Shown here: positions 52,021 to 63,281 of the stretch, piece after piece
Position numbering within the stretch: the first letter of the stretch is position 1
Layout of the letters: each line of letters starts with the position of its first letter
From: a bacterium
GTDB taxonomy: Bacteria; Myxococcota_A; Bradymonadia; UBA7976; UBA1532
Reading direction: 5' to 3'
Assembly (NCBI GenBank): GCA_030426085.1
Contig: JAUHYW010000053.1
Span: forward strand, 1 to 64,000
Length of the DNA stretch: 64,000 nt
Position numbers and translations under genes: made by a program
Notes under the pieces: generated by a model
Database searches by the model: none
The model's input: the letters and a program-made list of their open reading frames with translations, nothing else
What the model was told of the DNA's origin: nothing

Positions 52021-52166
52021 GCGCGCCTCCTCCTGACACCCGCCCCGATCCCCGACCCTCCGAAGACCGCGCGCAGCCCTTGTTTCGGCCGCACCCCTTG
52101 ACGTAGAAGTCCACGGCCGACGGCTCCGGCGGCGAGCCGGGGCGCAATCCGATCAGGGGAGTGATC

Positions 52167-54800
52167 ATGCAGCGGTGTTCGAGGCTGGGGACCTATCTGC
52201 TCATCGTGAGCGCGGCGTGGCTGGCGGCCTGCGACGACGAGCCCGGCGACGAGGCGACCCAGCCCGACGCCCTGGTGCGGGTGGTCGACGCCGAGACCGA
52301 CGGCGACCCGATCGACAGCGCGCCCGACCCCGAACCGGAGGCCGACGCCGCGCCCGACCCCGAGCCCGACATGGGCAGGCTGGTGCGCGATCTGGAGACC
52401 TGCGACGACATCTGCGGGGTCTACGCAGACTGCGACCGGCTCGACCTGTGGGCCGGCACGGTCGAGGAGTGCCTGCGGGGCTGCGCCGACGCCGAGCTGT
52501 CGGACCGCTTCCAGGGCTACCGCTCGTGCATGCAGATCACCGCCTGCGACGCGCTCGACGAGTGCGTCGTGCCGGCCCGCCCCCGCCCCGAGTGCCCCGA
52601 CGTCTGCGAGGCGCTCGACGACTGCGGGGCCACCGCCCGGGTGCCCGGCGGGCTGCCCGACGTCGCCAACTGCGCCGCCGCCTGCAACGACCGCACGCTG
52701 GCCCAGTCGATCATCAACTGCGGCGAAGCGATCGTGTACGAGCCGGAGCTGTGCGACGAGCCCACCTTCGCCGCCTGCGTGCTCGGCGAGCGCCAGGCGG
52801 CGTGCATGAACCTGTGCGCCGCCCGGGCCGACTGCGAAGAGGGCCTCGACCCCATCGACTGCGCGCTCGACTGCGCCCAGCCGCCCGAGAGCGACGACCC
52901 CGTCGCCCGCCGCCGCCAGACCATCGCCCGCACCTGCGCCGCCGAGGCCGCCGACTGCGACGAGCTGGCCGCCTGCGGGCAGCAGGTCTCGCGGGACATC
53001 GTCGGCGAGGCCACCGTCGAGGAGCTGTGCGCCGCCGATGGCGAGCAGTGCGGGTTCTTCGCCGGCGACACCTGCCCCGCGGTGGCCGAGCCGGCCCTGC
53101 GCGAGCTGGCCGACGGCGCCATCGACTGCCTCGTCGGTGGCCTCGAGGCGTGCGACGGCGGCCTGCTGCGCTGCTTCGAGCCGGCCACTCTGCCCCCCGA
53201 GGCCTGCGACGAGCACTGCGCGGTGTCGTTCCTCTGCGGCACCCTGCCCGACGGCCAGATCGAGTTCGAATGCGTGCAGCAGTGCCGGGCCGCGCTCGCC
53301 AGCGGGGACGAGGCGCTCATCTCGCCCCTGCGACCGGGGCTGACCTGCGCCTACGACGACTCCTGCGCCGACATCGCCGCCTGCATCGAGGCCTCGGGCG
53401 CCGCCGACGCCTGCCCCGCCTTCTGCGCCCGGCTCGGCGAGCTGGGCCAGGACGTGCCCGAGGGCTGCGAGGCCGACTGCCTCGCCCGCAGCAACACCGC
53501 CCGCGGCTTCGCCCAGCGGGCGTGCGGGCTGGCGGTGGCCGACGGCGAGGGCTACCAGGCCATCTGCACCCCGCCGCCGCCGCCCCGGTGCGACGTGCTC
53601 TGCGCGCGGCTCGACGCCTGCGAGCTGGGCGGGGCCGACTGCGTCGCGAGCTGTGACGACGCCGACTTCGCCGACCCCGACCTCTTCCTGCCCCGGCTGG
53701 CCTGCGTGGCCTCCACCGCCCGCTGCGACGAGCGGCTGATCTGCGAGGGCGGCGACCTCTCGGGCGGCGACGCCTGCATGGCGTGGTGCACGCGCTCCAT
53801 CGAGTGCGGCGGGGCCGAGGTCGACCCGGTCGACTGCCTCGTCGAGTGCGGCGAGGGCCTGCCCGCCGCCGAGGGGCTGCTGTTCGACGGCGCCCGGGCA
53901 TGCCTCGAAGCGGCCGGCCCCGACGCCGAGTGCGAGGCGCTCGACGCCTGCGTCGACGCGGTGCCGCCCGACGCCTACTGCGAGACCTTCTGCGCGGCGA
54001 CCGTCGGCTGCCGGCTCGTCGAGGGCAACGAGGCGTGCATCGCCGCCTGCCGGGCCACCGCCGAAGACCCCGAGCAGATCGAGCAGGCGGCCTGCGCCAT
54101 CGGCGCGCTGAACGCCGGGGCCGGCTGCGCCGTGATCGCCGAGTGCGTCGGGGCCGAGGTCGAGCCGGCCAGCCCCGCCTGCCAGTCGCTGTGCGCCGCG
54201 CAGAACGTCTGCGACGAGGACGCCGACGCCTTCCTCTGCGAGCGGGACTGCATCCCCGAGCCCGAGGGCACCCCCCTGCGGGCCGCCTGCGCCGAGCGGG
54301 CCACCTGCGCCGAGCTTCAGATGTGCATCGACGCGCCCGCCGCGGGCCCGATGGCCTGCGGCGACATCTGCGCCACCCTGGGCATGTGCCCCGACCTGAT
54401 CGGAGAGGCCGACGGCGCCCTGTACCCCGACGCCGACGCCTGCCTCGCCGACTGCGGCGGCCTCGAAGCCCTGCGGGGCGAGGGCACCGCCCAGGCCATC
54501 GCGGTCTGCGTGGACGCCGCGATGTGCGACGGCCCGACCGCCGCCGCCTGCTTCGACATCGGCCCGGCCTACACCTGCCAGGACGCCTGGGACGGGTTCG
54601 TGTCGTGCAGCAACGAGGCCCTGCTCGAAGGCTTCGGCGTCGTCGACGAGGCCTCGTACCTCGCGTTCTGCGGAGATCTGCTGGCGATGGATCCGGCCAC
54701 CACCCAGGGCCAGATCGACTGCGTGGTCGAGACCGCCCAGCAGGCGATGGGCGACCCGATCGTATGCGGGGGGCAGTTCTTCTGCTTCCTCGGCATCTGA
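52167..54800 (+). CDS. Large Cys-rich repeat lipoprotein
   Basis: An 877-residue lipoprotein. AGGGGA lies six bases before the ATG at 52167; the signal ends at LAAC. An acidic Asp/Pro/Glu linker is followed by at least eight repeats of about 70-110 residues. Each starts with CxxxCxxxxxC (CDDICGVYADC, CPDVCEALDDC, CMNLCAARADC, CDVLCARLDAC, CETFCAATVGC) and ends with a CxxxC pair (CVASC, CLVEC, CIAAC, CERDC). Cysteines are even in spacing, so disulfides are expected. Acidic residues dominate and there are few Lys. No catalytic motif is visible. I do not know this repeat family; related but shorter ones occur in Myxococcota-like lipoproteins. It may be a surface spacer or binding array. Confidence 0.85.
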   Translation: MQRCSRLGTYLLIVSAAWLAACDDEPGDEATQPDALVRVVDAETDGDPIDSAPDPEPEADAAPDPEPDMGRLVRDLETCDDICGVYADCDRLDLWAGTVEECLRGCADAELSDRFQGYRSCMQITACDALDECVVPARPRPECPDVCEALDDCGATARVPGGLPDVANCAAACNDRTLAQSIINCGEAIVYEPELCDEPTFAACVLGERQAACMNLCAARADCEEGLDPIDCALDCAQPPESDDPVARRRQTIARTCAAEAADCDELAACGQQVSRDIVGEATVEELCAADGEQCGFFAGDTCPAVAEPALRELADGAIDCLVGGLEACDGGLLRCFEPATLPPEACDEHCAVSFLCGTLPDGQIEFECVQQCRAALASGDEALISPLRPGLTCAYDDSCADIAACIEASGAADACPAFCARLGELGQDVPEGCEADCLARSNTARGFAQRACGLAVADGEGYQAICTPPPPPRCDVLCARLDACELGGADCVASCDDADFADPDLFLPRLACVASTARCDERLICEGGDLSGGDACMAWCTRSIECGGAEVDPVDCLVECGEGLPAAEGLLFDGARACLEAAGPDAECEALDACVDAVPPDAYCETFCAATVGCRLVEGNEACIAACRATAEDPEQIEQAACAIGALNAGAGCAVIAECVGAEVEPASPACQSLCAAQNVCDEDADAFLCERDCIPEPEGTPLRAACAERATCAELQMCIDAPAAGPMACGDICATLGMCPDLIGEADGALYPDADACLADCGGLEALRGEGTAQAIAVCVDAAMCDGPTAAACFDIGPAYTCQDAWDGFVSCSNEALLEGFGVVDEASYLAFCGDLLAMDPATTQGQIDCVVETAQQAMGDPIVCGGQFFCFLGI

Positions 54801-54941: not shown

Positions 54942-56330
54942 TCAGAACAGGAAGTTGTACCGCGCCATGCCCGTGTGGATGAACAGGCTGCCCTCGTTGC
55001 GGGCGTCCTGCAGCTCGGTCTCGTAGATGCCGTCGTACATCACATCCACCTGATGCTGCCGGTTGATGCGCCACGCGGCGCTGAGCCCCATCAGCAGCAC
55101 CCGCTGCTTCTCGTCGAACTGACGCGCCCGCGCGTCATCGATGGACTGCCCGTCGTACCAGGTGAAGCGGCCGTCGAGGGTGACGCTCGAGCCGAGATCG
55201 TGCTGGGCGTTGAGGGCGATGAGCACCGAATCGGAGACGAAGTTGTCCCGGAGTTGGGCTTGCAGGTCGACCCGGGTGCCGAGACCGAAGAGGTCGTCGT
55301 CGCGGATGCCGATGGTGTAGTGCCACGCGTCGAGGCCGTCGAGGCTGCGCTGCTTGTACTCGATCGACTGGTAGTGATAGCGCGGCCCGAAGCGCAGCCC
55401 CACCGAGAACCGGGCCCGGTCGTAGCTCAGGGCGAGCACCTCGTCGCCCAGGATGAGGGCCTGATTGGGCTCGATCACGTTCTGGTAGATGACCTCGTCC
55501 CAATAGCGGGCCAGTGAGTAGCGGCTGACGTTGAGGCCCAGCTCGACGGACGGGATGGGCTTGTAGTCCAGGCTGGCGAGCAGGGTCGTCACCTGGGGCT
55601 CGTCGATCAGATCGACGAGGGCGTAGGTGGCGAGGTAGAGGCCATCGGCCAGCTTCAGGTGCACCCGGCCGAAGCCGTATTGCCGGTCGAGCAGGTTCGG
55701 GGCGGGGTAGTCGACCCCGCGCACGGTCTCGGCGTCGCGGGTATTGAACTCGACGTTGTACGCCGCCGAGGCGTCGAGCCAGTCGTTGTGAAAGCCCAGG
55801 TACGCCCCGGTGGCCTGGCGGTCGATGTCGAGGCCGTAGGCGATGGGGTCGGGCGCCAGCCCGCCGTAGGCCCCGAGCACGCCGCCGTCGAAGAGGTGCA
55901 GCCGCAGCTCGAGGCCGTCGACCCAGGCGTTGCCCGCCTCGGCGATGAGGCGCCGGCCGAGGGCGACGTCGAGGCGGTCGCCGAAGAGGCCCGGCTGCTC
56001 GACGTAGGCCTGCCGGATCTGGTCCAGGCTCTCGGTGCGGCCGAAGCGGCGCTCCCGGGTGTCGGTGGCGTCGAGCACGAAGGTGCCGTCGAGCACGAGC
56101 TTCAGGCCGCCGTCGGTGAGGTTCGTCGCCTGGGCGTCGGTCTCGAGGAAGGCGATGAAGACCGACTGCGCCCGCTCGGTGATGCGCAGGCCGTCGTCCG
56201 AGAAGAGCGCCCGCAGCGCGACCCGGCCGTCGACGTCGACCTCTTTGGCCATCGCGTCGGGCGCGAGGGCCGCGAGGGCCGCGAGGGCCGTGGCGCACAG
56301 CGCCGCCGGGATCGGGAGGCGGCGGCGCAT
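54942..56330 (-). CDS. Outer-membrane beta-barrel of the multihaem cytochrome operon
   Basis: A 462-residue outer-membrane protein. Its ATG overlaps the cytochrome stop by one base (TGATG). The signal peptide (about 1-29, MRRRLPIPAALCATALAALA, ending AMA) is followed by strand-rich sequence with alternating hydrophobics throughout (LRALFSDDGLRITERAQSVF, RYHYQSIEYKQRSLDGLDAW, DLQAQLRDNFVSDSVLIALN), ending in a barrel signature MARYNFLF with terminal Phe. It lacks haem motifs. Its place as the last gene of an operon with a 30-haem cytochrome and an inner-membrane Fe-S protein is like the porin-cytochrome conduits (MtrCAB type), in which a barrel holds a multihaem cytochrome in the outer membrane. 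That role is an inference; similarity to MtrB is not shown. Confidence 0.8.
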   Translation of the reverse strand: MRRRLPIPAALCATALAALAALAPDAMAKEVDVDGRVALRALFSDDGLRITERAQSVFIAFLETDAQATNLTDGGLKLVLDGTFVLDATDTRERRFGRTESLDQIRQAYVEQPGLFGDRLDVALGRRLIAEAGNAWVDGLELRLHLFDGGVLGAYGGLAPDPIAYGLDIDRQATGAYLGFHNDWLDASAAYNVEFNTRDAETVRGVDYPAPNLLDRQYGFGRVHLKLADGLYLATYALVDLIDEPQVTTLLASLDYKPIPSVELGLNVSRYSLARYWDEVIYQNVIEPNQALILGDEVLALSYDRARFSVGLRFGPRYHYQSIEYKQRSLDGLDAWHYTIGIRDDDLFGLGTRVDLQAQLRDNFVSDSVLIALNAQHDLGSSVTLDGRFTWYDGQSIDDARARQFDEKQRVLLMGLSAAWRINRQHQVDVMYDGIYETELQDARNEGSLFIHTGMARYNFLF

Positions 56331-58585
56331 CACCGGGCGTCCTCGCACAGCCCGCAGCCGGCCCCCGGGCGGGCCAGATCCCAGCGCACGGTGGTGTGGC
56401 AGTTCTCGCAGTTGTTCCGGCCGCCGGGCACGCACACGGTGTGATCGCAGGTCGGCGAGCCGGCGGTGGCGGCGAAGGTGTCGCTGTGGCAGAAGCTGCA
56501 CTCATTGGGCAGCCCGCCGAAGACCCGCCCCGGGTGGCACTCGCGGCACTCGACGTAGCGGTGGGCCCCCGACAGCCGGAACCCGGTCTCGTAGTGCAGG
56601 AAGCTCGCCGGCAGGAAGTACTCCTGAGTGTGGCACTCGTGGCACTGCGGGCCGAAGCTGCCGAAGTGCACGTCCCGGTGGCAGTTGACGCACTCGGGGC
56701 CGGTGCCGGCGAGCACCCGGTCCCGGTCGGGGCCGTGGCACCGCTCGCACTCGATCAGGTCGTGCACCCCGCCGAGGCGGAAGGCGCCGAAGTCGTGATC
56801 GATGCCGCTGTTGGTGGTCCAGTCGGCGGTGGTGTGGCACCGGGCGCAGTCGGCGCCCTTCTTGCCGATGTGCACGTCGATGTGGCAGCCATCGCAGTCC
56901 TGGGGCAGCCCCTTGTACTGGTTCTGGACGTGGCACTTGGCGCAGTCGAGGTCGCGGTGGCGGCCGTAGAGCTTGTAGGCGGTGCGCCCGTCGTGGTCGA
57001 AGTCGGCCACCGGGGACCAGCCGTCGACCTTGTGGCAGCTGTCGCAGCGATCGGCGAACTGCGGCTCGTGGAAGTTGTAGTGGCAGTTGGCGCAGGCGGT
57101 GTCGATGGGGCGATAGCGCCCGTCGGGGTGGCAGTCGACGCAGGCGACGGTGGTGTGCCGCCCGGCGAGTTGGAACCGGCTGAGCGTGTGATCGAAGAAC
57201 GGGATGTTCCACCGCTCGAAGCCCCGGTGGCAGCGGTCGCACGACGCGCCCTCGAACTGGTCGCGGTGCACGTCGGCGTGGCAGAACGCGCAGTCCTGCA
57301 CGGTGTCGTCTTCGGTCTCGGTGCCGTTGGGGTGGCATCGGAAGCACGGCTGGTCGATGTGGCGACCTTCGAGCGGGAACCCGGTCACCCCGTGGTCGAA
57401 GCGGGTCTTCTTCCAGTCGATGGGCGAGTGGCAGTTGCTGCACGGGCGGTCGCCGAAGGTGTCCCCGTGGGGGTTGTCGTCCTGGTGGCAGCTCTTGCAC
57501 TCGGTCTTCAGCGGCTTGTACTTGCCGCCCGGGTGGCACTTGCCGCAGTCGACCTGACGGTGCTTGCCCCGCAGCGGGAACCGGCTCATCGAGTCGTGGT
57601 TGAACTTGAGGTGGCGCCCCTTCCAGCCGCTCTCCTGGTGGCAGCGGGTGCACGGGGTCTGGCCGAACTGCCCCCGGTGGTCGTCCTCGTGGCAGCCGGT
57701 GCAGTCGGTGTCCCGGGGGGTCCAGCGCTCCCATTTGTGGCACTCGAGGCAGCGGGTGCGCTTGTGCTTGCCCCGCAGCGGCCAGCCGGTGGTGGTGTGC
57801 TCGAAGATCGAGCTCTCCTTCCAGCCGGTGGTGACGTGGCACTCCTCGCAGATGCGGGCCCCGAAGATGCCCGGGGGGTGGGGGTCCTGGTGGCAGGTCA
57901 CGCAGCCGCTGACCTCGATCGGGCCGAACTTGCGCTTGCCGAGGTGGCACTTGTCGCAGGCGACCCGGGCGTGCTTGCCGGTCAACGGGAAGCGGGTCTC
58001 CTTCTGGTGGTCGAACTTCAGCCGGGCGTTGAGCTGCTTCCAGTCGAAGGCGTTGTGGCACTTCTCGCAGTCGGCGAGGTCGGCCCGCTCGGCGTCGCCG
58101 TGGTAGTCGCCGTGGCACGCCCGGCACTCGGTCGAGGCGCCGAGGTAGCTGTCGCGGTTGGTCTTCTTGCGCTTGGCGGTGTGGCACTCGCGGCAGCCGA
58201 CGCCGACGTGCCCCCCGACGAGCCGGTAGCCGGTCAGGTCGTGCTCGAAGTTGCGCTTGTCGAGCGGGTTGGGGTCGTGGTTGCGGCCGAGGTGCTCCCG
58301 GTGGCAGTTGTTGCAGCCGTCGCCCCGCACGACCTTGGCGTGGTAGCCCAGCCGCTTCGACAGCCGGCGGGCGATGCCGGTGTGGCAGTCGAGGCACTTC
58401 TCCTGGGGCACCCCGCCGAACGCGACGTGGCAGCTGTTGCACTCGCTCTTCTTGTCGAGGTGGGCGTGCACCTTCGACAGCGGCCGGGCCGCCTGCGCCG
58501 GCCCGATGGCCAGCGCCGCCAGGATCACGGCGCAGGCCGCGAGGCAGCCCGTCGAGAGACCCCATGCCGCGCGCACGCCAGCCAT
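56330..58585 (-). CDS. 30-haem c-type cytochrome
   Basis: A 751-residue exported cytochrome. The N-terminus has a signal or anchor (about 8-32, ending AQA). I count 30 CxxCH motifs from CNSCH near residue 53 to CENCH near the end, one per 25 residues on average, spaced in pairs as in cytochrome c3/NrfH-like units. Between pairs come recurring histidine contexts such as FDHxxTGFPLxGRH, GKHxxVxCxKCH and DxHxxQF, which suggest bis-His ligation. Such a chain could act as an electron wire. It starts at 58585, beginning two bases after the stop region of the Fe-S gene, so the two are coupled. Other proteins with this many haems serve extracellular electron transfer (family knowledge). Confidence 0.95.
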   Translation of the reverse strand: MAGVRAAWGLSTGCLAACAVILAALAIGPAQAARPLSKVHAHLDKKSECNSCHVAFGGVPQEKCLDCHTGIARRLSKRLGYHAKVVRGDGCNNCHREHLGRNHDPNPLDKRNFEHDLTGYRLVGGHVGVGCRECHTAKRKKTNRDSYLGASTECRACHGDYHGDAERADLADCEKCHNAFDWKQLNARLKFDHQKETRFPLTGKHARVACDKCHLGKRKFGPIEVSGCVTCHQDPHPPGIFGARICEECHVTTGWKESSIFEHTTTGWPLRGKHKRTRCLECHKWERWTPRDTDCTGCHEDDHRGQFGQTPCTRCHQESGWKGRHLKFNHDSMSRFPLRGKHRQVDCGKCHPGGKYKPLKTECKSCHQDDNPHGDTFGDRPCSNCHSPIDWKKTRFDHGVTGFPLEGRHIDQPCFRCHPNGTETEDDTVQDCAFCHADVHRDQFEGASCDRCHRGFERWNIPFFDHTLSRFQLAGRHTTVACVDCHPDGRYRPIDTACANCHYNFHEPQFADRCDSCHKVDGWSPVADFDHDGRTAYKLYGRHRDLDCAKCHVQNQYKGLPQDCDGCHIDVHIGKKGADCARCHTTADWTTNSGIDHDFGAFRLGGVHDLIECERCHGPDRDRVLAGTGPECVNCHRDVHFGSFGPQCHECHTQEYFLPASFLHYETGFRLSGAHRYVECRECHPGRVFGGLPNECSFCHSDTFAATAGSPTCDHTVCVPGGRNNCENCHTTVRWDLARPGAGCGLCEDAR

Positions 58586-58587
58586 CC

Positions 58588-60633
58588 TCAGTTGTTCCCC
58601 ACGTGGAAGATGAGCGAGTGGATGATGTGCACCACCAGCGCCCCGTAGGCGATGTAGCTGGTGGTGACGTGCACCACCCGATAGCGCCGCAGCACCCGGG
58701 TCATGAAGGCGTGGCGCTTCATCGACCGCTCGAGGCGGGCCTTCTCCCGCAGCAGCTCGGCGACCGCCTTGGCCGCGCCGTCGCGCATCGTATCGCCGAG
58801 CCGCGCGGTGAGCGCGTCGATGGTCTCCTCGGCCTTCCGGTTCTCCCGGAACAGCTCGAGCACCCCGGCGAAGAGGCCCCGCTTCTCGCCCTCGTCTTCG
58901 GCCGGGGCCGGGGCGGCGAGCGACTCGAGGGCCGCCTCGACCTCCCGGGCCTTGGACAGCTCCTCGATGCGCACCAGCGCGGTGTAGCCGGCCTTGGCGT
59001 CGGTGAACTGCGCCTCGACCTGCCGGTTGATCTGCTTGATGCGCCCGTCGATGTCTTCGAGCGCGAGCAGCTGCCCCGCCTGGCTGCGCGGGATCTGGAA
59101 GACCATCCACCGGCCGATGCCGCCGGTGACGATCGCCACCGCCATCATGACGAAGGTGGTGATGGCGATGGGCTCGGTGAAGACGAAGGCGGTGTGATAG
59201 AAGCCGTAGACCCCCGCCAGCACCCCGGTCCAGATGTGAAGCTCCATCCACTTCTGGGCGCTGCCGAACCACTTGCGGAATCGATAGAGCTGGGTCGCCA
59301 GCATCATCGAGCCGCCGATGTAGCCCATGCCGTGGCTGAAGAAGTCGCCCGCCTTGAACGGGGCCATCGGGTCGATGTCGTGGGCGGTCAGGCCGAGCGC
59401 GAAGAACAGGTGGCCGAAGGTCAGCCCGGGGAAGTACAGCCGGCCGAAGCACTCCCAGGTCAGCACGAGGGTGTTGATCAGGGTGAAGATCATCCACGCC
59501 AGCCGGTGGCCGTGCGGGGTGCCCTCGGGGCTCTCGACCTCGTCGAAGCCCGGGGTCTCGTGCACCTTGAACTGCTGCCAGTAGTCGAACAGCTCGGCCC
59601 CGTCGACCTGGAACATCGCGCCCACCGGGCAGGCGGTGATGCACGCCTGGTCGGCGTAGCCGGTGCAGTTGTCGCACTTCTGGGCGATCTGCTTGCCCTT
59701 GTGGGCCGGGTCGCGGTCGGGGAAGTACTTCGCCAGATCGAGGGTGTCGACCGGGTGCATGCGGATCGAGCCGAAGCTGCACCCCTTGGAGCACATCGTG
59801 CACCCGGTGCAGTTGTCGGCGATCACGATCTCCCGCGTCTCGGGGTGGCGGGTGATGTGCCCGAACTTGCACTTGTCGATGCACTCGGGGACCACGCAGT
59901 TGTGGCAGTTCTGCGGGATCTCGGTCAGCCCGTACTTGACCTCGCTCGGCCCGAGGCGGTCGGTGCCGTGGCGCGCCTTGCAGGCGTCGTAGCAGCCGTC
60001 GCACTCGATGCAGATGTCCATCCGCTTGAGCTTGACCCGACCGGCGAAGGTCAGCCGCTCGGCGACGAGGAACCGGGCGACGTCCTGCTGGAAGCGGTCG
60101 TCGAAGCGGCTCTTCTGGCGCTGGGTCACCCGGCGGATGACCGCGCTGAAGGCGTCGCGGAACGGGGGGCTCTTCTTGAGCAGGTAGTTGACGTCCCGGT
60201 AGCCGAGCTTGATCGCCTTGACCGGGCACATCGCCGTCAGCCGCACCTTCGCGGTGCGCTCGTCGGCGAAGAGCTTCTGCACGTAGGGGTCGCCGACGGT
60301 GAGGTAGTTGACCGTCTTCTCGTCGCCCTCGATGTCGGTGCGGTGCACCGAGACGTCGCCGAAGGTGATCAGGTAGACCGGGGAGTCGTCGTCGCCGCCG
60401 ACCGGCTTGCCGTCGAAGAGGTGCTCGCCCCGATCGAGCTCGATGTGCTCGCAGCGGGCGGCGAGGCGGGTGCGCAGGGCCACGTCGAGGCGGTCGAAGA
60501 GCGGGATGAGGCCGAGCAGCTCGGCGGTGACCTCGATCGGCTGCTTCTTGCGCTTGCGCCGGCCCTTACGCCCCTTCTTGGGCGCAGCCTTGGTGACCTT
60601 GACCGGCTTGTCGGACGGGGCTGCGACGCTCAC
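58588..60633 (-). CDS. Membrane electron-transfer protein with cNMP-binding, Fe-S and cytochrome-b-like domains
   Basis: A 681-residue fusion. A Lys/Arg-rich start is followed by a cyclic-nucleotide-binding (CAP-ED) fold (about 36-165), then a ferredoxin-like part (about 204-340) with four Cys groups: CIECDGCYDAC, CHNCVVPECIDKC, CTGCTMCSKGC and CDNCTGYADQACITACP, like the DMSO-reductase B-type subunits. Membrane helices lie at about 377-515, with histidines in LHIWTGVLAGVYGFYH, then a coiled coil (about 525-640) and a last helix (652-676) with HVTTSYIAYGALVVHIIHS; these His residues may bind b haems. The GTG start at 60633 has GGAGGAGA 12 bases upstream. It would pass quinol electrons to the 30-haem cytochrome; the cNMP domain may gate this (inference). 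Confidence 0.88.
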   Translation of the reverse strand: MSVAAPSDKPVKVTKAAPKKGRKGRRKRKKQPIEVTAELLGLIPLFDRLDVALRTRLAARCEHIELDRGEHLFDGKPVGGDDDSPVYLITFGDVSVHRTDIEGDEKTVNYLTVGDPYVQKLFADERTAKVRLTAMCPVKAIKLGYRDVNYLLKKSPPFRDAFSAVIRRVTQRQKSRFDDRFQQDVARFLVAERLTFAGRVKLKRMDICIECDGCYDACKARHGTDRLGPSEVKYGLTEIPQNCHNCVVPECIDKCKFGHITRHPETREIVIADNCTGCTMCSKGCSFGSIRMHPVDTLDLAKYFPDRDPAHKGKQIAQKCDNCTGYADQACITACPVGAMFQVDGAELFDYWQQFKVHETPGFDEVESPEGTPHGHRLAWMIFTLINTLVLTWECFGRLYFPGLTFGHLFFALGLTAHDIDPMAPFKAGDFFSHGMGYIGGSMMLATQLYRFRKWFGSAQKWMELHIWTGVLAGVYGFYHTAFVFTEPIAITTFVMMAVAIVTGGIGRWMVFQIPRSQAGQLLALEDIDGRIKQINRQVEAQFTDAKAGYTALVRIEELSKAREVEAALESLAAPAPAEDEGEKRGLFAGVLELFRENRKAEETIDALTARLGDTMRDGAAKAVAELLREKARLERSMKRHAFMTRVLRRYRVVHVTTSYIAYGALVVHIIHSLIFHVGNN

Positions 60634-60777: not shown

Positions 60778-62427
60778 TCAGAACCCGAAGATGAGGCAGG
60801 CGCCTTCGGGGGCGGCCTCCATGCTGCCGGGGAAGGTCTCGCCGTGGGCGCAGAACCCGCCCGGGTGGCACGGCACGAGGTCGGGGCCGAGCGGCTGGCC
60901 GATGGGGTCGACCTTCTTGCAGGTACAGTAGGTCTGCATCAGGAACGCGTTGAGGGTGCAGTTCGAGCCCGGCGGGCAGACGCCGTCACCGCCGCCGGGA
61001 TCGCAGGTGCCGTCGGAGTAGAAGCACTGCCCGGTCTCCTGATTGCAGTTCATCGAGTCGGGCAGGGCGCAGTCCTGGGGGCCGGCGCAGCCGGGGGCCC
61101 CGGTCATCGCGTTCACGCAGATCCCGCTCTGGGCGTCGCAGCGGGTGCCCCGCTGGCAGGTGACCCCGCTGCACGGCGAGCGCACGCACTGCTGGTTGTC
61201 GGTGCAGGCGAAGCGCGGGGGGCAGTCGGCGTCCTCGAGGCAGGCGACGCAGCGCTGCTGATAGCAGATGGGCAGCCCGAGGCAGTCGCCGCAGTCGACG
61301 TCGCCGGCGCAGGCGCAGCCGGCGCCCTCGTTCTCGCAGGTGTTGGTCGCCGGGTCGCAGACGAGCCCCTCGCCGCAGGGGGTCACCGCGTCGCACTCGA
61401 CGCAGCGGGCCTGATCCTGGAGGCAGACCGGGGTCGGCGGGGCGCACGACCCGCCGCAGGCGTCGCACGCGCCGCCCTCGGGCTGGCACAGCGCGCCGTC
61501 GCAGGCGTAGCCCGCCGGGCACATGCCGCCGTCGCTGCAATCGGCGAGGCACACCGCCTGCCCCCCCGCCTGAGCGCACTCGAGCCCCGGGGCGCAGTCG
61601 GCGCCGGTGCACGGCTCGCAGGCCTGGCGGGGCGGCACGCAGGCGCCGCTGGCCACGTCGCACACCGAGCCCGCCTCGCAAGGGGCGGCGGGGCACTTCT
61701 CGCAGTCGTAGTTGACCGGGATGCACTGGCCCACCGCGTCGAGGCAGGTGAAGCCGTCGGGGCAGTCGCCGGGCCCACCGCAGGCCGAGGTACAGAAGCT
61801 GCCGGTGTTGCCGATCGGGGTGCACTCGGCGCCTTCGCCGAGCGCGGCGCAGTCGCCGTCGCCGGCGCAGCGGGCGCACAGCTCGCCGCCCGTCGGGGGG
61901 GCCATGTCGGGGTCGGGCCCGCCGCCGTCGGCCGGCGGGGGGTCGCCGTCGGTCGCCGGCCCCTGGTCGGCCGCCGGGCCCATGTCTTCGGGGTCGACCG
62001 GCACCGCGTCCTGCTCGGGGCAGTCCGTGCGGCACTCGCCGCCGCAGCAGGCGAAGCCGTCGCCGAAGGACGAGCACTCGCCGTCCGTGGTGCACGCGAG
62101 GTCGCCGGCGATGCAGGTGTTGCGGAACGGCCCGGTGGTGATGCAGCTCTCGCCGGCCTCGCAGGCCGTCGAGGGGGTGTTGCACTCCTGCGGCGAGCAG
62201 GCGCGCAGGTCGGCGAGGCAGGTGCGGCCGCTGCCGGGGCAGGCGCCGATGTTGGCGCACGGCACCTCGGTGCAGCGCTCGTCCTCGCAGATCGTGCCCC
62301 GGGGGCAGTCGGGGTCGCGGTTGCAGCTCGCGCTGCCGCCGTCGCCCTCCTGACAGCCGCCGAGGGCGATCAGGGCGAGCACGGCGAGCCCGCGGAGGGC
62401 GGTCGGGGTGATGATGTGGTGGTTCAA
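60778..62427 (-). CDS. Cys-rich lipoprotein with CxxDxxC-type repeats
   Basis: A 549-residue lipoprotein. I take a TTG at 62427 as start because a GAGGGG site precedes it and it opens a compact signal peptide ending LIALGGC; the frame further upstream has no signal features. The mature part has dozens of cysteines in short units such as CNRDPDCPRGTICEDERC, CTGADCAPGLECAQAGGQAVC and CLEDADCPPRFACTDNQQC, the disulfide repeat widespread in Myxococcota-like exported proteins. An Asp/Pro/Gly hinge lies near 143-178. No enzyme motif is present. A -10/-35 pair and a leader hairpin lie upstream, so it seems to have its own regulated transcript. Confidence 0.85.
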   Translation of the reverse strand: MNHHIITPTALRGLAVLALIALGGCQEGDGGSASCNRDPDCPRGTICEDERCTEVPCANIGACPGSGRTCLADLRACSPQECNTPSTACEAGESCITTGPFRNTCIAGDLACTTDGECSSFGDGFACCGGECRTDCPEQDAVPVDPEDMGPAADQGPATDGDPPPADGGGPDPDMAPPTGGELCARCAGDGDCAALGEGAECTPIGNTGSFCTSACGGPGDCPDGFTCLDAVGQCIPVNYDCEKCPAAPCEAGSVCDVASGACVPPRQACEPCTGADCAPGLECAQAGGQAVCLADCSDGGMCPAGYACDGALCQPEGGACDACGGSCAPPTPVCLQDQARCVECDAVTPCGEGLVCDPATNTCENEGAGCACAGDVDCGDCLGLPICYQQRCVACLEDADCPPRFACTDNQQCVRSPCSGVTCQRGTRCDAQSGICVNAMTGAPGCAGPQDCALPDSMNCNQETGQCFYSDGTCDPGGGDGVCPPGSNCTLNAFLMQTYCTCKKVDPIGQPLGPDLVPCHPGGFCAHGETFPGSMEAAPEGACLIFGF

Positions 62428-62448
62428 GATCCCCTCGGTGCCGGTCTG

Positions 62449-62467
62449 GACTGTCTCCCCGACAGTC
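62449..62467 (-). promoter_or_regulatory. Leader hairpin upstream of the Cys-rich lipoprotein
   Basis: GACTGTC (62449-62455), 5-base loop, GACAGTC (62461-62467), a perfect 7-base inverted repeat between the -10 box and the TTG start. It would be at about +5 to +24 of the transcript, where it could act as an operator or a 5' stem-loop affecting stability. Confidence 0.5.
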
Positions 62468-62478
62468 GATTGGGCGGG

Positions 62479-62508
62479 AGTATAGGGGCTGGGCCGAGAG
62501 CTGGGCAA
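62479..62508 (-). promoter_or_regulatory. Candidate promoter of the Cys-rich lipoprotein
   Basis: On the minus strand TTGCCC (62503-62508), 18 bases, then TATACT (62479-62484), the best -10 box in the window. Transcription would start near 62472, 45 bases before the TTG start at 62427. Confidence 0.6.
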
Positions 62509-62598
62509 CCGGACGCGGGCCACGGGGGGCGGGCGGTCGGCGGCGCCGCGGCGGGCGCGCGGGTGGGGCGTGAATCGGCGGGCTCACCCGACACCCGG

Positions 62599-62690: not shown

Positions 62691-63281
62691 ATGGCCAAGA
62701 AACTCCCCGACGTCTTCTCGACCCACTCCGCGGCCAAGTTCTGCCGGGTCACGCCGATGACCATCATCCGGTGGATCGACGAGGGTCGCATCAAGGCCTA
62801 CAAGACGCCCGGCGGTCATCGGCGCATCATGCGCGCCGACCTCGAGGACTTCTGCCGGCGCAACGAGATCCCGATGCAGTGGGAGGATCGGGTCACCACC
62901 GGCAGCCGGCGGGTGCTCATCATCGACGACGACAAGTCGGTGGTGAACGCGATCCTCGACGCGCTGCTCGACGAGGACGAGAACAAGGAGACCGAGGCCA
63001 CCTTCGAGGTCGAGCACACCGACAACCCGTTCGACGGCGGGCGGCTGGTGTCGAGCTTCCGCCCGGACGTGATCTTCCTCGACCTCAACCTGCCCGGGGT
63101 CGACCCCCAGAAGGTGGCCCGCTCGATCCGCCGCGACCCGGCCACCGCCAAGTCGCGGGTGGTGGGCATCGCCTCGGACGGCAGCCACCGCCCGGTCGAG
63201 CTCGACGAGGTGCTCAGCCGGCCCCTCGGCAAGAAGGCCGTGCGCCGGGTGACCGGCCCCCTGCCGAACCTCAAGCGCTGA
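62691..63281 (+). CDS. MerR-like HTH and receiver domain regulator
   Basis: A 196-residue DNA-binding regulator. Residues 9-60 form an excisionase/MerR-type winged helix (STHSAAKFCRVTPMTIIRWI, then EGRIKAYKTPGGHRRI). Residues 73-180 form a response-regulator receiver: RRVLIIDDDKSVV with acidic D79-D81, and the phospho-acceptor aspartate D131 in IFLDLNLPG. The usual order is receiver first and DNA-binding part last; here the HTH is N-terminal, a less common layout. No histidine kinase is adjacent. The ParA gene follows 125 bases later on the same strand. It may link a phospho-signal to transcription, for instance in cell-cycle or polarity control (inference). Confidence 0.88.
   Translation: MAKKLPDVFSTHSAAKFCRVTPMTIIRWIDEGRIKAYKTPGGHRRIMRADLEDFCRRNEIPMQWEDRVTTGSRRVLIIDDDKSVVNAILDALLDEDENKETEATFEVEHTDNPFDGGRLVSSFRPDVIFLDLNLPGVDPQKVARSIRRDPATAKSRVVGIASDGSHRPVELDEVLSRPLGKKAVRRVTGPLPNLKR

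Follow-up and report, generated by a model that had tools for sequence, protein, structure and literature searches.

A putative trans-envelope electron conduit with a 30-haem cytochrome in a Bradymonadia genome

Can three adjacent genes encode a path for electrons between the cytosol and the cell surface? The question is raised by a locus on contig JAUHYW010000053.1 of a bacterium of the Bradymonadia, of which we analyzed positions 1-64,000 of the forward strand (the window, 64,000 nt; all coordinates are window positions). The locus encodes an inner-membrane redox protein (IM), a 30-haem c-type cytochrome (CYT) and an outer-membrane barrel (BAR). Our results suggest that IM, CYT and BAR probably form a trans-envelope electron conduit that follows the general design of the known systems PCC3 and PCC4, lacks an extracellular cytochrome and is fed from cytosolic Fe-S centres.

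Three coupled genes and their products

An earlier note on this DNA had placed the genes in the order IM-CYT-BAR, each coupled to the next, and this order, the coordinates and the strand hold:

58588-60633, minus strand: IM, GTG start at 60633, 681 amino acids (aa); Crp-like domain, four [4Fe-4S] sites and transmembrane di-haem cytochrome b, assigned from the open reading frame (ORF), profiles and motif conservation
60130-60528, minus strand: IM residues 36-168, Crp/cyclic-nucleotide-binding (CNB)-type domain, from Pfam cNMP_binding, a CRP alignment and a 13-row alignment
59599-60021, minus strand: IM residues 205-345, four [4Fe-4S] sites, from 16 invariant Cys
58600-59505, minus strand: IM residues 377-678, membrane part, with H466-X13-H480, T503GxxG507 and H655-X13-H669, from hydropathy; homologous to stand-alone inner-membrane proteins (IMPs)
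56330-58585, minus strand: CYT, ATG at 58585, 751 aa; 30-haem c-type cytochrome with a signal-like N-terminus and ten triheme c7-type units
54942-56330, minus strand: BAR, ATG at 56330, 462 aa; outer-membrane beta-barrel with a signal-like N-terminus and ~22 predicted strands

The IM stop and the CYT start are 2 nt apart, and the CYT stop codon TGA shares 1 nt with the BAR ATG (TGATG). A mechanically called 519-aa ORF for BAR (54942-56501) was rejected, its 5' end being 57 codons too long. Hydrophobic signal-like segments were found at the N-termini of CYT and BAR. IM has none, and its N-terminal soluble part is therefore taken to be cytosolic. No second multihaem ORF was present beside the three genes within the window.

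The 751 residues of CYT contain 30 strict CxxCH motifs, as the earlier note had counted, which corresponds to 25 aa per haem; 5,000 composition-preserving shuffles of the protein contained 0.49 on average and never more than 5. Thirty haems is a high number, but no record, as single proteins with 85 and 86 haem motifs have been published according to PMC5566968 and PMC12133095. Pfam recognized c7/c3-type haem repeats (Cytochrome_C7, PF14522, 5e-35) in eight stretches, and the motifs can be aligned as ten units of ~67 residues that contain three CxxCH and some three additional conserved His apiece. In an alignment of 11 sequences (A2), the others being 44-89% identical to the window CYT, all 30 CxxCH motifs were invariant, and exactly 30 of the 34 His outside the motifs were invariant as well. 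Given 30 haems and 30 conserved candidate distal His, all-bis-His ligation is predicted, and CYT is likely to be an all-bis-His haem chain. A profile built from 19 homologues matched sixteen-haem cytochromes and the Geobacter protein GSU1996 in the PDB (3OV0, E 2.9e-7, the best solved relative among c7 wires); MtrA was not among the listed matches, and phmmer with the single CYT sequence gave no match in the PDB. The sole NCBIfam match, HmcA, was far under its cut-off. Outside the haem ligands, conservation was highest in units 9 and 10 (0.74 and 0.70, compared to 0.57-0.67 elsewhere), in keeping with a docking of these units at the barrel.

BAR was modelled with AlphaFold2 from 22 sequences (predicted local distance difference test, pLDDT, 83.3; predicted template modelling score, pTM, 0.76). 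By our own count of strands of at least nine residues, the model has 22 strands. Structure comparison with the PDB returned outer-membrane barrels only, namely OprD-type porins and TonB-dependent receptors with Z ~19 (22-strand receptors Z 18.9) at 7-13% identity; we take the strand numbers of these two groups to be 18 and 22, respectively. MtrB was missing among the listed structure matches, which tells neither for nor against kinship. The only Pfam indication was Porin_4, below threshold (0.0047). Space for a plug domain is lacking in BAR, so that a wide lumen is expected, which CYT may enter.

Profile relatives of IM in the PDB were HycB-type four-cluster ferredoxins and Crp-type domains. 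Consistent with this, Pfam detected Fer4_7 (6e-8), and 16 Cys, equivalent to four [4Fe-4S] sites, were invariant among 13 IM homologues. In the membrane part, both His pairs (H466-X13-H480 and H655-X13-H669) and [ST]GxxG were present in 13/13 rows. The residue four positions before the first pair was Trp in 11/13 rows (W462 in the window) and that before the second was Tyr in 12 rows and Trp in one. According to He et al. 2017 (PMC5566968), the IMPs of PCC3 and PCC4 have a common signature: of their five membrane helices, the third and fifth carry WX3HX13H and the fourth SGXXG. The authors liken these IMPs to ferric reductase and NADPH oxidase (NOX). At the level of sequence, the IM motifs are this published signature. 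When IM itself was compared with di-haem b proteins of the ferric reductase/NOX type, both HX13H motifs were present, hydropathy left the helix numbering uncertain and PF01794 was not among the listed matches.

The earlier note had also assigned a cyclic-nucleotide-binding domain to the inner-membrane part. Its Crp type stands by profile: cNMP_binding was below threshold in the window IM (0.0016; 18.8 bits, the cut-off being 27.5) and was detected in 11/13 family members at E<=0.1. Nucleotide sensing is another matter. We assume that a conserved Glu and Arg in the phosphate-binding cassette mark CNB-type sensors of cyclic nucleotides. In the 13 rows, the column aligned to the CRP pocket Glu is mostly Gln and the pocket Arg is unconserved; the pocket looks degenerate, which makes regulation by cyclic nucleotides doubtful. 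A canonical-looking cyclic-nucleotide motif was observed in IM paralogues elsewhere (L064-L067, open frames of 775-1023 aa); those of L065-L067 have other multihaem ORFs nearby.

Conservation of the locus and its neighbourhood

We searched a phylum sample of 282 genomes with cut-offs of E<=1e-20 for IM (weak paralogues included), E<=1e-60 for CYT (other long c7 cytochromes included) and E<=1e-15 for BAR. Matches were obtained in 24, 61 and 17 genomes, respectively, and all 17 genomes with BAR also had CYT, while 16/17 had an IM match. Among 20 stretches examined, ten contained a complete CYT; in each of the ten, the motif count was exactly 30 and CYT was flanked by IM upstream and by BAR directly downstream (~2 kb separates IM from CYT in L050, and a contig end cuts IM in L063).

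A wider scan, with one genome per species for 84,980 species, revealed 22 CYT loci, many of them sharing genomes. BAR was directly downstream in 21 of these, and the remaining one (L089) runs off its contig; no multihaem ORF lay between CYT and BAR in 21/22 loci. One ORF with exactly 30 motifs was found in 15 of the 22. The other counts were 15+15 in two frames (L081), 29 (L080), 33 (L082) and 27 (L083, cut at the contig start), and three loci were fragmentary (L078, L088, L089). According to the record titles, the 22 loci belong to Myxococcales/Myxococcota, unplaced bacteria, proteobacteria, Nitrospinota, Nitrospinales and Nitrospirae, the fragment L089 being from a Verrucomicrobia metagenome-assembled genome (MAG). 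The case envisaged in the earlier note, an unrelated barrel without co-occurrence, was thus examined and not found: the model is that of a large barrel, and cytochrome and barrel stand together in 21/22 loci and 17/17 genomes.

Stand-alone IMPs homologous to the membrane part of IM occur in Nitrospinota/Nitrospirota MAGs and in Emticicia. Matches to the N-terminal part and to the membrane part of IM lie apart from each other in 4/5 genomes with Nitrospinota/Nitrospirota-type loci.

Two neighbouring genes recur in related loci:

60778-62523, minus strand: CRL, Cys-rich putative lipoprotein upstream of IM, traced by tblastn in related loci
62691-63281, plus strand: RR, excisionase/BldC-like helix-turn-helix and receiver domain, divergent neighbour

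CRL stays adjacent to IM even where CYT-BAR sits elsewhere (L057-L059; tblastn), and Pfam and NCBIfam searches assigned it to no family. It is likely an accessory part and possibly a fourth component. RR is syntenic with the IM-CYT-BAR set in related loci and is a possible regulator. Downstream of BAR and convergent with it, positions 52161-54800 (plus strand) encode an 879-aa Cys-rich, secreted-looking protein, for which tblastn gave no match in related loci.

Known systems and further conduit-like loci

The porin-cytochrome resemblance pointed out in the earlier note is supported, whereas its choice of MtrCAB and OmcB as nearest comparison is not: the closest known systems are PCC3 and PCC4. 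PCC3, compared by its described features, shares with the window a porin gene, a long periplasmic multihaem cytochrome and an IMP with two HX13H motifs and SGXXG. For its cytochromes, PMC5566968 gives a median value of 26 aa per haem (25 in CYT), and PCC3 is proposed in PMC5566968 and PMC10734462 to span the whole cell wall. PCC3 differs by the extracellular multihaem cytochrome in its cluster, of which the window locus has none, by a median of 21 haems (21-27 in Gallionellaceae according to PMC10734462) in contrast to 30, and by an IMP of ~300 aa where IM is fused to Crp-like and 4x[4Fe-4S] domains. PCC4 shares the IMP signature, an Fe-S partner (in subgroup II; fused in IM) and the lack of an extracellular cytochrome, but has three periplasmic cytochromes of 4, 5 and 10 haems instead of a single one of 30. 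Since the extracellular cytochrome sets PCC3 apart from it and the three small cytochromes PCC4, we regard the window system as a sister variant that would work like both.

Other systems share fewer features. MtrAB, MtoAB and PioAB likewise combine a barrel with a periplasmic multihaem cytochrome, but the latter is described as a ten-haem protein of the DmsE family and MtrB as 26-stranded (PMC12133095, PMC10734462). GSU1996 is a linear array of triheme c7 units in tandem, as in CYT; according to PMC10138318, its 12 haems include one with His-Met ligation in every unit, whereas the candidate distal ligands of CYT are all conserved His and CYT has IM and BAR as partners. The same source gives 27 haems for GSU2210 of Geobacter.

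A homologous conduit was found on plasmid pEMTOL02 of Emticicia oligotrophica DSM 17448 (NC_018749.1 78197-90781, equivalent to L146 475-13059), the only matching plasmid among 72,556. Its genes encode, one after the other, CcsA, an IMP-signature protein of 281 aa, a pyridine-nucleotide flavoprotein with 2x[4Fe-4S], two c3/c7-type cytochromes (23 and 40 motifs) and a protein of 538 aa recognized by the BAR profile. The IM, CYT and BAR profiles scored 109, 434 and 81 bits, respectively (E-values refer to the 11-protein set). Thus a homologous IMP, a c7-type 23-haem cytochrome and a barrel come in the same order as in the window, whereas the 40-haem cytochrome is extra and the Fe-S flavoprotein takes the place of the Crp/Fe-S fusion. 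Given this flavoprotein, NAD(P)H may be what supplies the family with electrons.

Among 12 further loci of the phylum with long c7 cytochromes, seven had a BAR-like ORF beside or near the cytochrome (L122, L123, L124, L126, L130, L133 with a weak match of E 6e-4, and L135). None was found in L115, L121, L125, L127 and L129, in each of which the cytochrome lies near a contig end. L129, L130, L133 and L135 have a PCC3-like layout with an IMP-like ORF, a 20-23-haem cytochrome and a further 10-12-haem cytochrome. L133 comes from the same genome as the window (C32; 7058-13267) and contains an IMP-like ORF, cytochrome ORFs with 23, 12 and 11 motifs in overlapping frames and a weak BAR-like ORF; this genome therefore seems to hold two kinds of conduit. 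It also contains cytochrome c assembly and COX1 genes.

The idea that the 30-haem chain arose when a 23-haem periplasmic cytochrome fused with an extracellular one of ~10 haems was considered and found to be unsupported by unit-by-unit scoring. CYT unit 1 was recognized in all long cytochromes and units 9-10 in those of L122-L124 (single-cytochrome loci with 27-29 haems); second cytochromes matched mainly units 5, 7 and 8 in unclear register.

Mechanism, alternatives and meaning

Taken stepwise, electrons from the cytosol would enter, or leave, through the four [4Fe-4S] clusters of IM, as its motifs indicate. Two b haems, held by the HX13H pairs of two helices (probably transmembrane helices 3 and 5) as in ferric reductase/NOX, would carry them across the inner membrane. 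The periplasm would be bridged by one all-bis-His chain of 30 haems in ten c7-type units, as predicted from haem sites and candidate ligands. Ten-haem MtrA is ~100 Å long according to PMC5566968. Scaled from MtrA, thirty haems could reach roughly 300 Å. This is about the width of the periplasm. Finally, CYT and the barrel are observed to co-occur, and the most conserved, C-terminal units of CYT may bind to the plugless ~22-strand barrel or pass through it, with haem exposed at the surface in place of the separate extracellular cytochrome of PCC3. A more specific version would be a quinone-independent wire from cytosol to surface, in which Fe-S clusters feed a NOX-like di-haem b gate, one polypeptide spans the periplasm and threads the barrel, the envelope width fixes the thirty haems as a molecular ruler and no extracellular cytochrome is needed. 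We offer this version tentatively and think it unlikely to be right in every part.

Several observations weigh against the conduit. The structure prediction for CYT reached only pLDDT 51.7 and pTM 0.22, with no haem chain or docking visible, and was excluded from fold searches owing to the low pLDDT. When BAR was compared to the PDB by sequence, phmmer found nothing and a profile nothing credible. Because the locus contains no extracellular cytochrome, we can only infer the surface terminus. One genome (G250, 65% complete) has CYT-BAR and no IM match, and no IM match was found in the fifth of the Nitrospinota/Nitrospirota-type genomes (that of L083). In three genomes of sister family f2, CRL-IM forms one block and CYT-BAR another, and IM is therefore not necessarily a fixed partner. 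Pairwise distances of IM, CYT and BAR correlate at 0.94-0.98 across 10 loci, which the species tree alone could explain. All relatives but one are MAGs.

The alternative that survives best is the same conduit running inward, oxidizing Fe(II)/Mn(II) or a partner cell, an overlap with our reading in all but direction. Published models of the nearest systems (PCC3, PCC4 and PCC_1 of Manganitrophaceae) run inward as presented in PMC5566968 and PMC9040806, and relatives of the locus occur in Nitrospinota/Nitrospirota MAGs. Against this, a search for the RuBisCO large subunit, the only carbon-fixation route searched, gave no match in the genome of the window, and Fe-S centres in the cytosolic part would require electrons of low potential. 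Inward flow is a serious possibility that we hold to be somewhat improbable, and we lean slightly towards disposal of reductant to the outside.

It is improbable that CYT is instead a periplasmic electron store, a capacitor charged by IM like the role proposed for GSU1996 in Geobacter, with the barrel serving otherwise. GSU1996 is the best solved c7-wire relative of CYT, and PMC10138318 describes such proteins as likely capacitors; against this reading stand the placement of BAR directly downstream in 21/22 loci, its translational overlap with CYT in the window and the presence of CYT in all 17 genomes with BAR. Quite improbable, too, is a periplasmic reductase, in which the barrel admits a soluble substrate, CYT reduces it with electrons from IM and nothing reaches the surface. 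The weak Porin_4 match and the OprD-like porins among the structure matches would suit it; however, every one of the 30 haems has a conserved candidate distal His, so that no open catalytic haem site is left, and a plugless ~22-strand barrel exceeds OprD-type porins in size. That the genes are unlinked neighbours, together by chance within one lineage, is largely refuted: the two blocks lie apart in f2 and the distances correlate as a species tree would have it, but the same order is found again at 28-44% identity, in further phyla and on the Emticicia plasmid.

A periplasm-spanning cytochrome of 21-27 haems has already been proposed for PCC3 in PMC10734462, and the idea itself is therefore not new. 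Our literature searches, which covered multihaem cytochromes with a porin, the cyclic-nucleotide domain, Bradymonadota and Myxococcota as well as PCC3/PCC4 in combination with the phyla, and which were judged in part by the titles listed, found no description of the present system, which is not proof of absence. As far as these searches show, novelty lies in the Fe-S/Crp-like fusion at the gate, in a lone 30-haem chain that lacks an extracellular partner, in the predicted ligation by His throughout and in the range of taxa.

The locus bears on a question that PMC5566968 and PMC10734462 raise for PCC3 and that research on extracellular electron transfer has yet to settle: can a single cytochrome connect the two membranes? 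A locus in which the genes for an inner gate, a cytochrome with thirty predicted all-bis-His haems and an outer barrel directly adjoin would make this question testable in one purified complex. The putative conduit and its relatives widen the spread of such systems to Myxococcota-type MAGs, Nitrospinota, Nitrospirota and Bacteroidota, and Emticicia oligotrophica DSM 17448 is a cultured strain in which the family could be studied.

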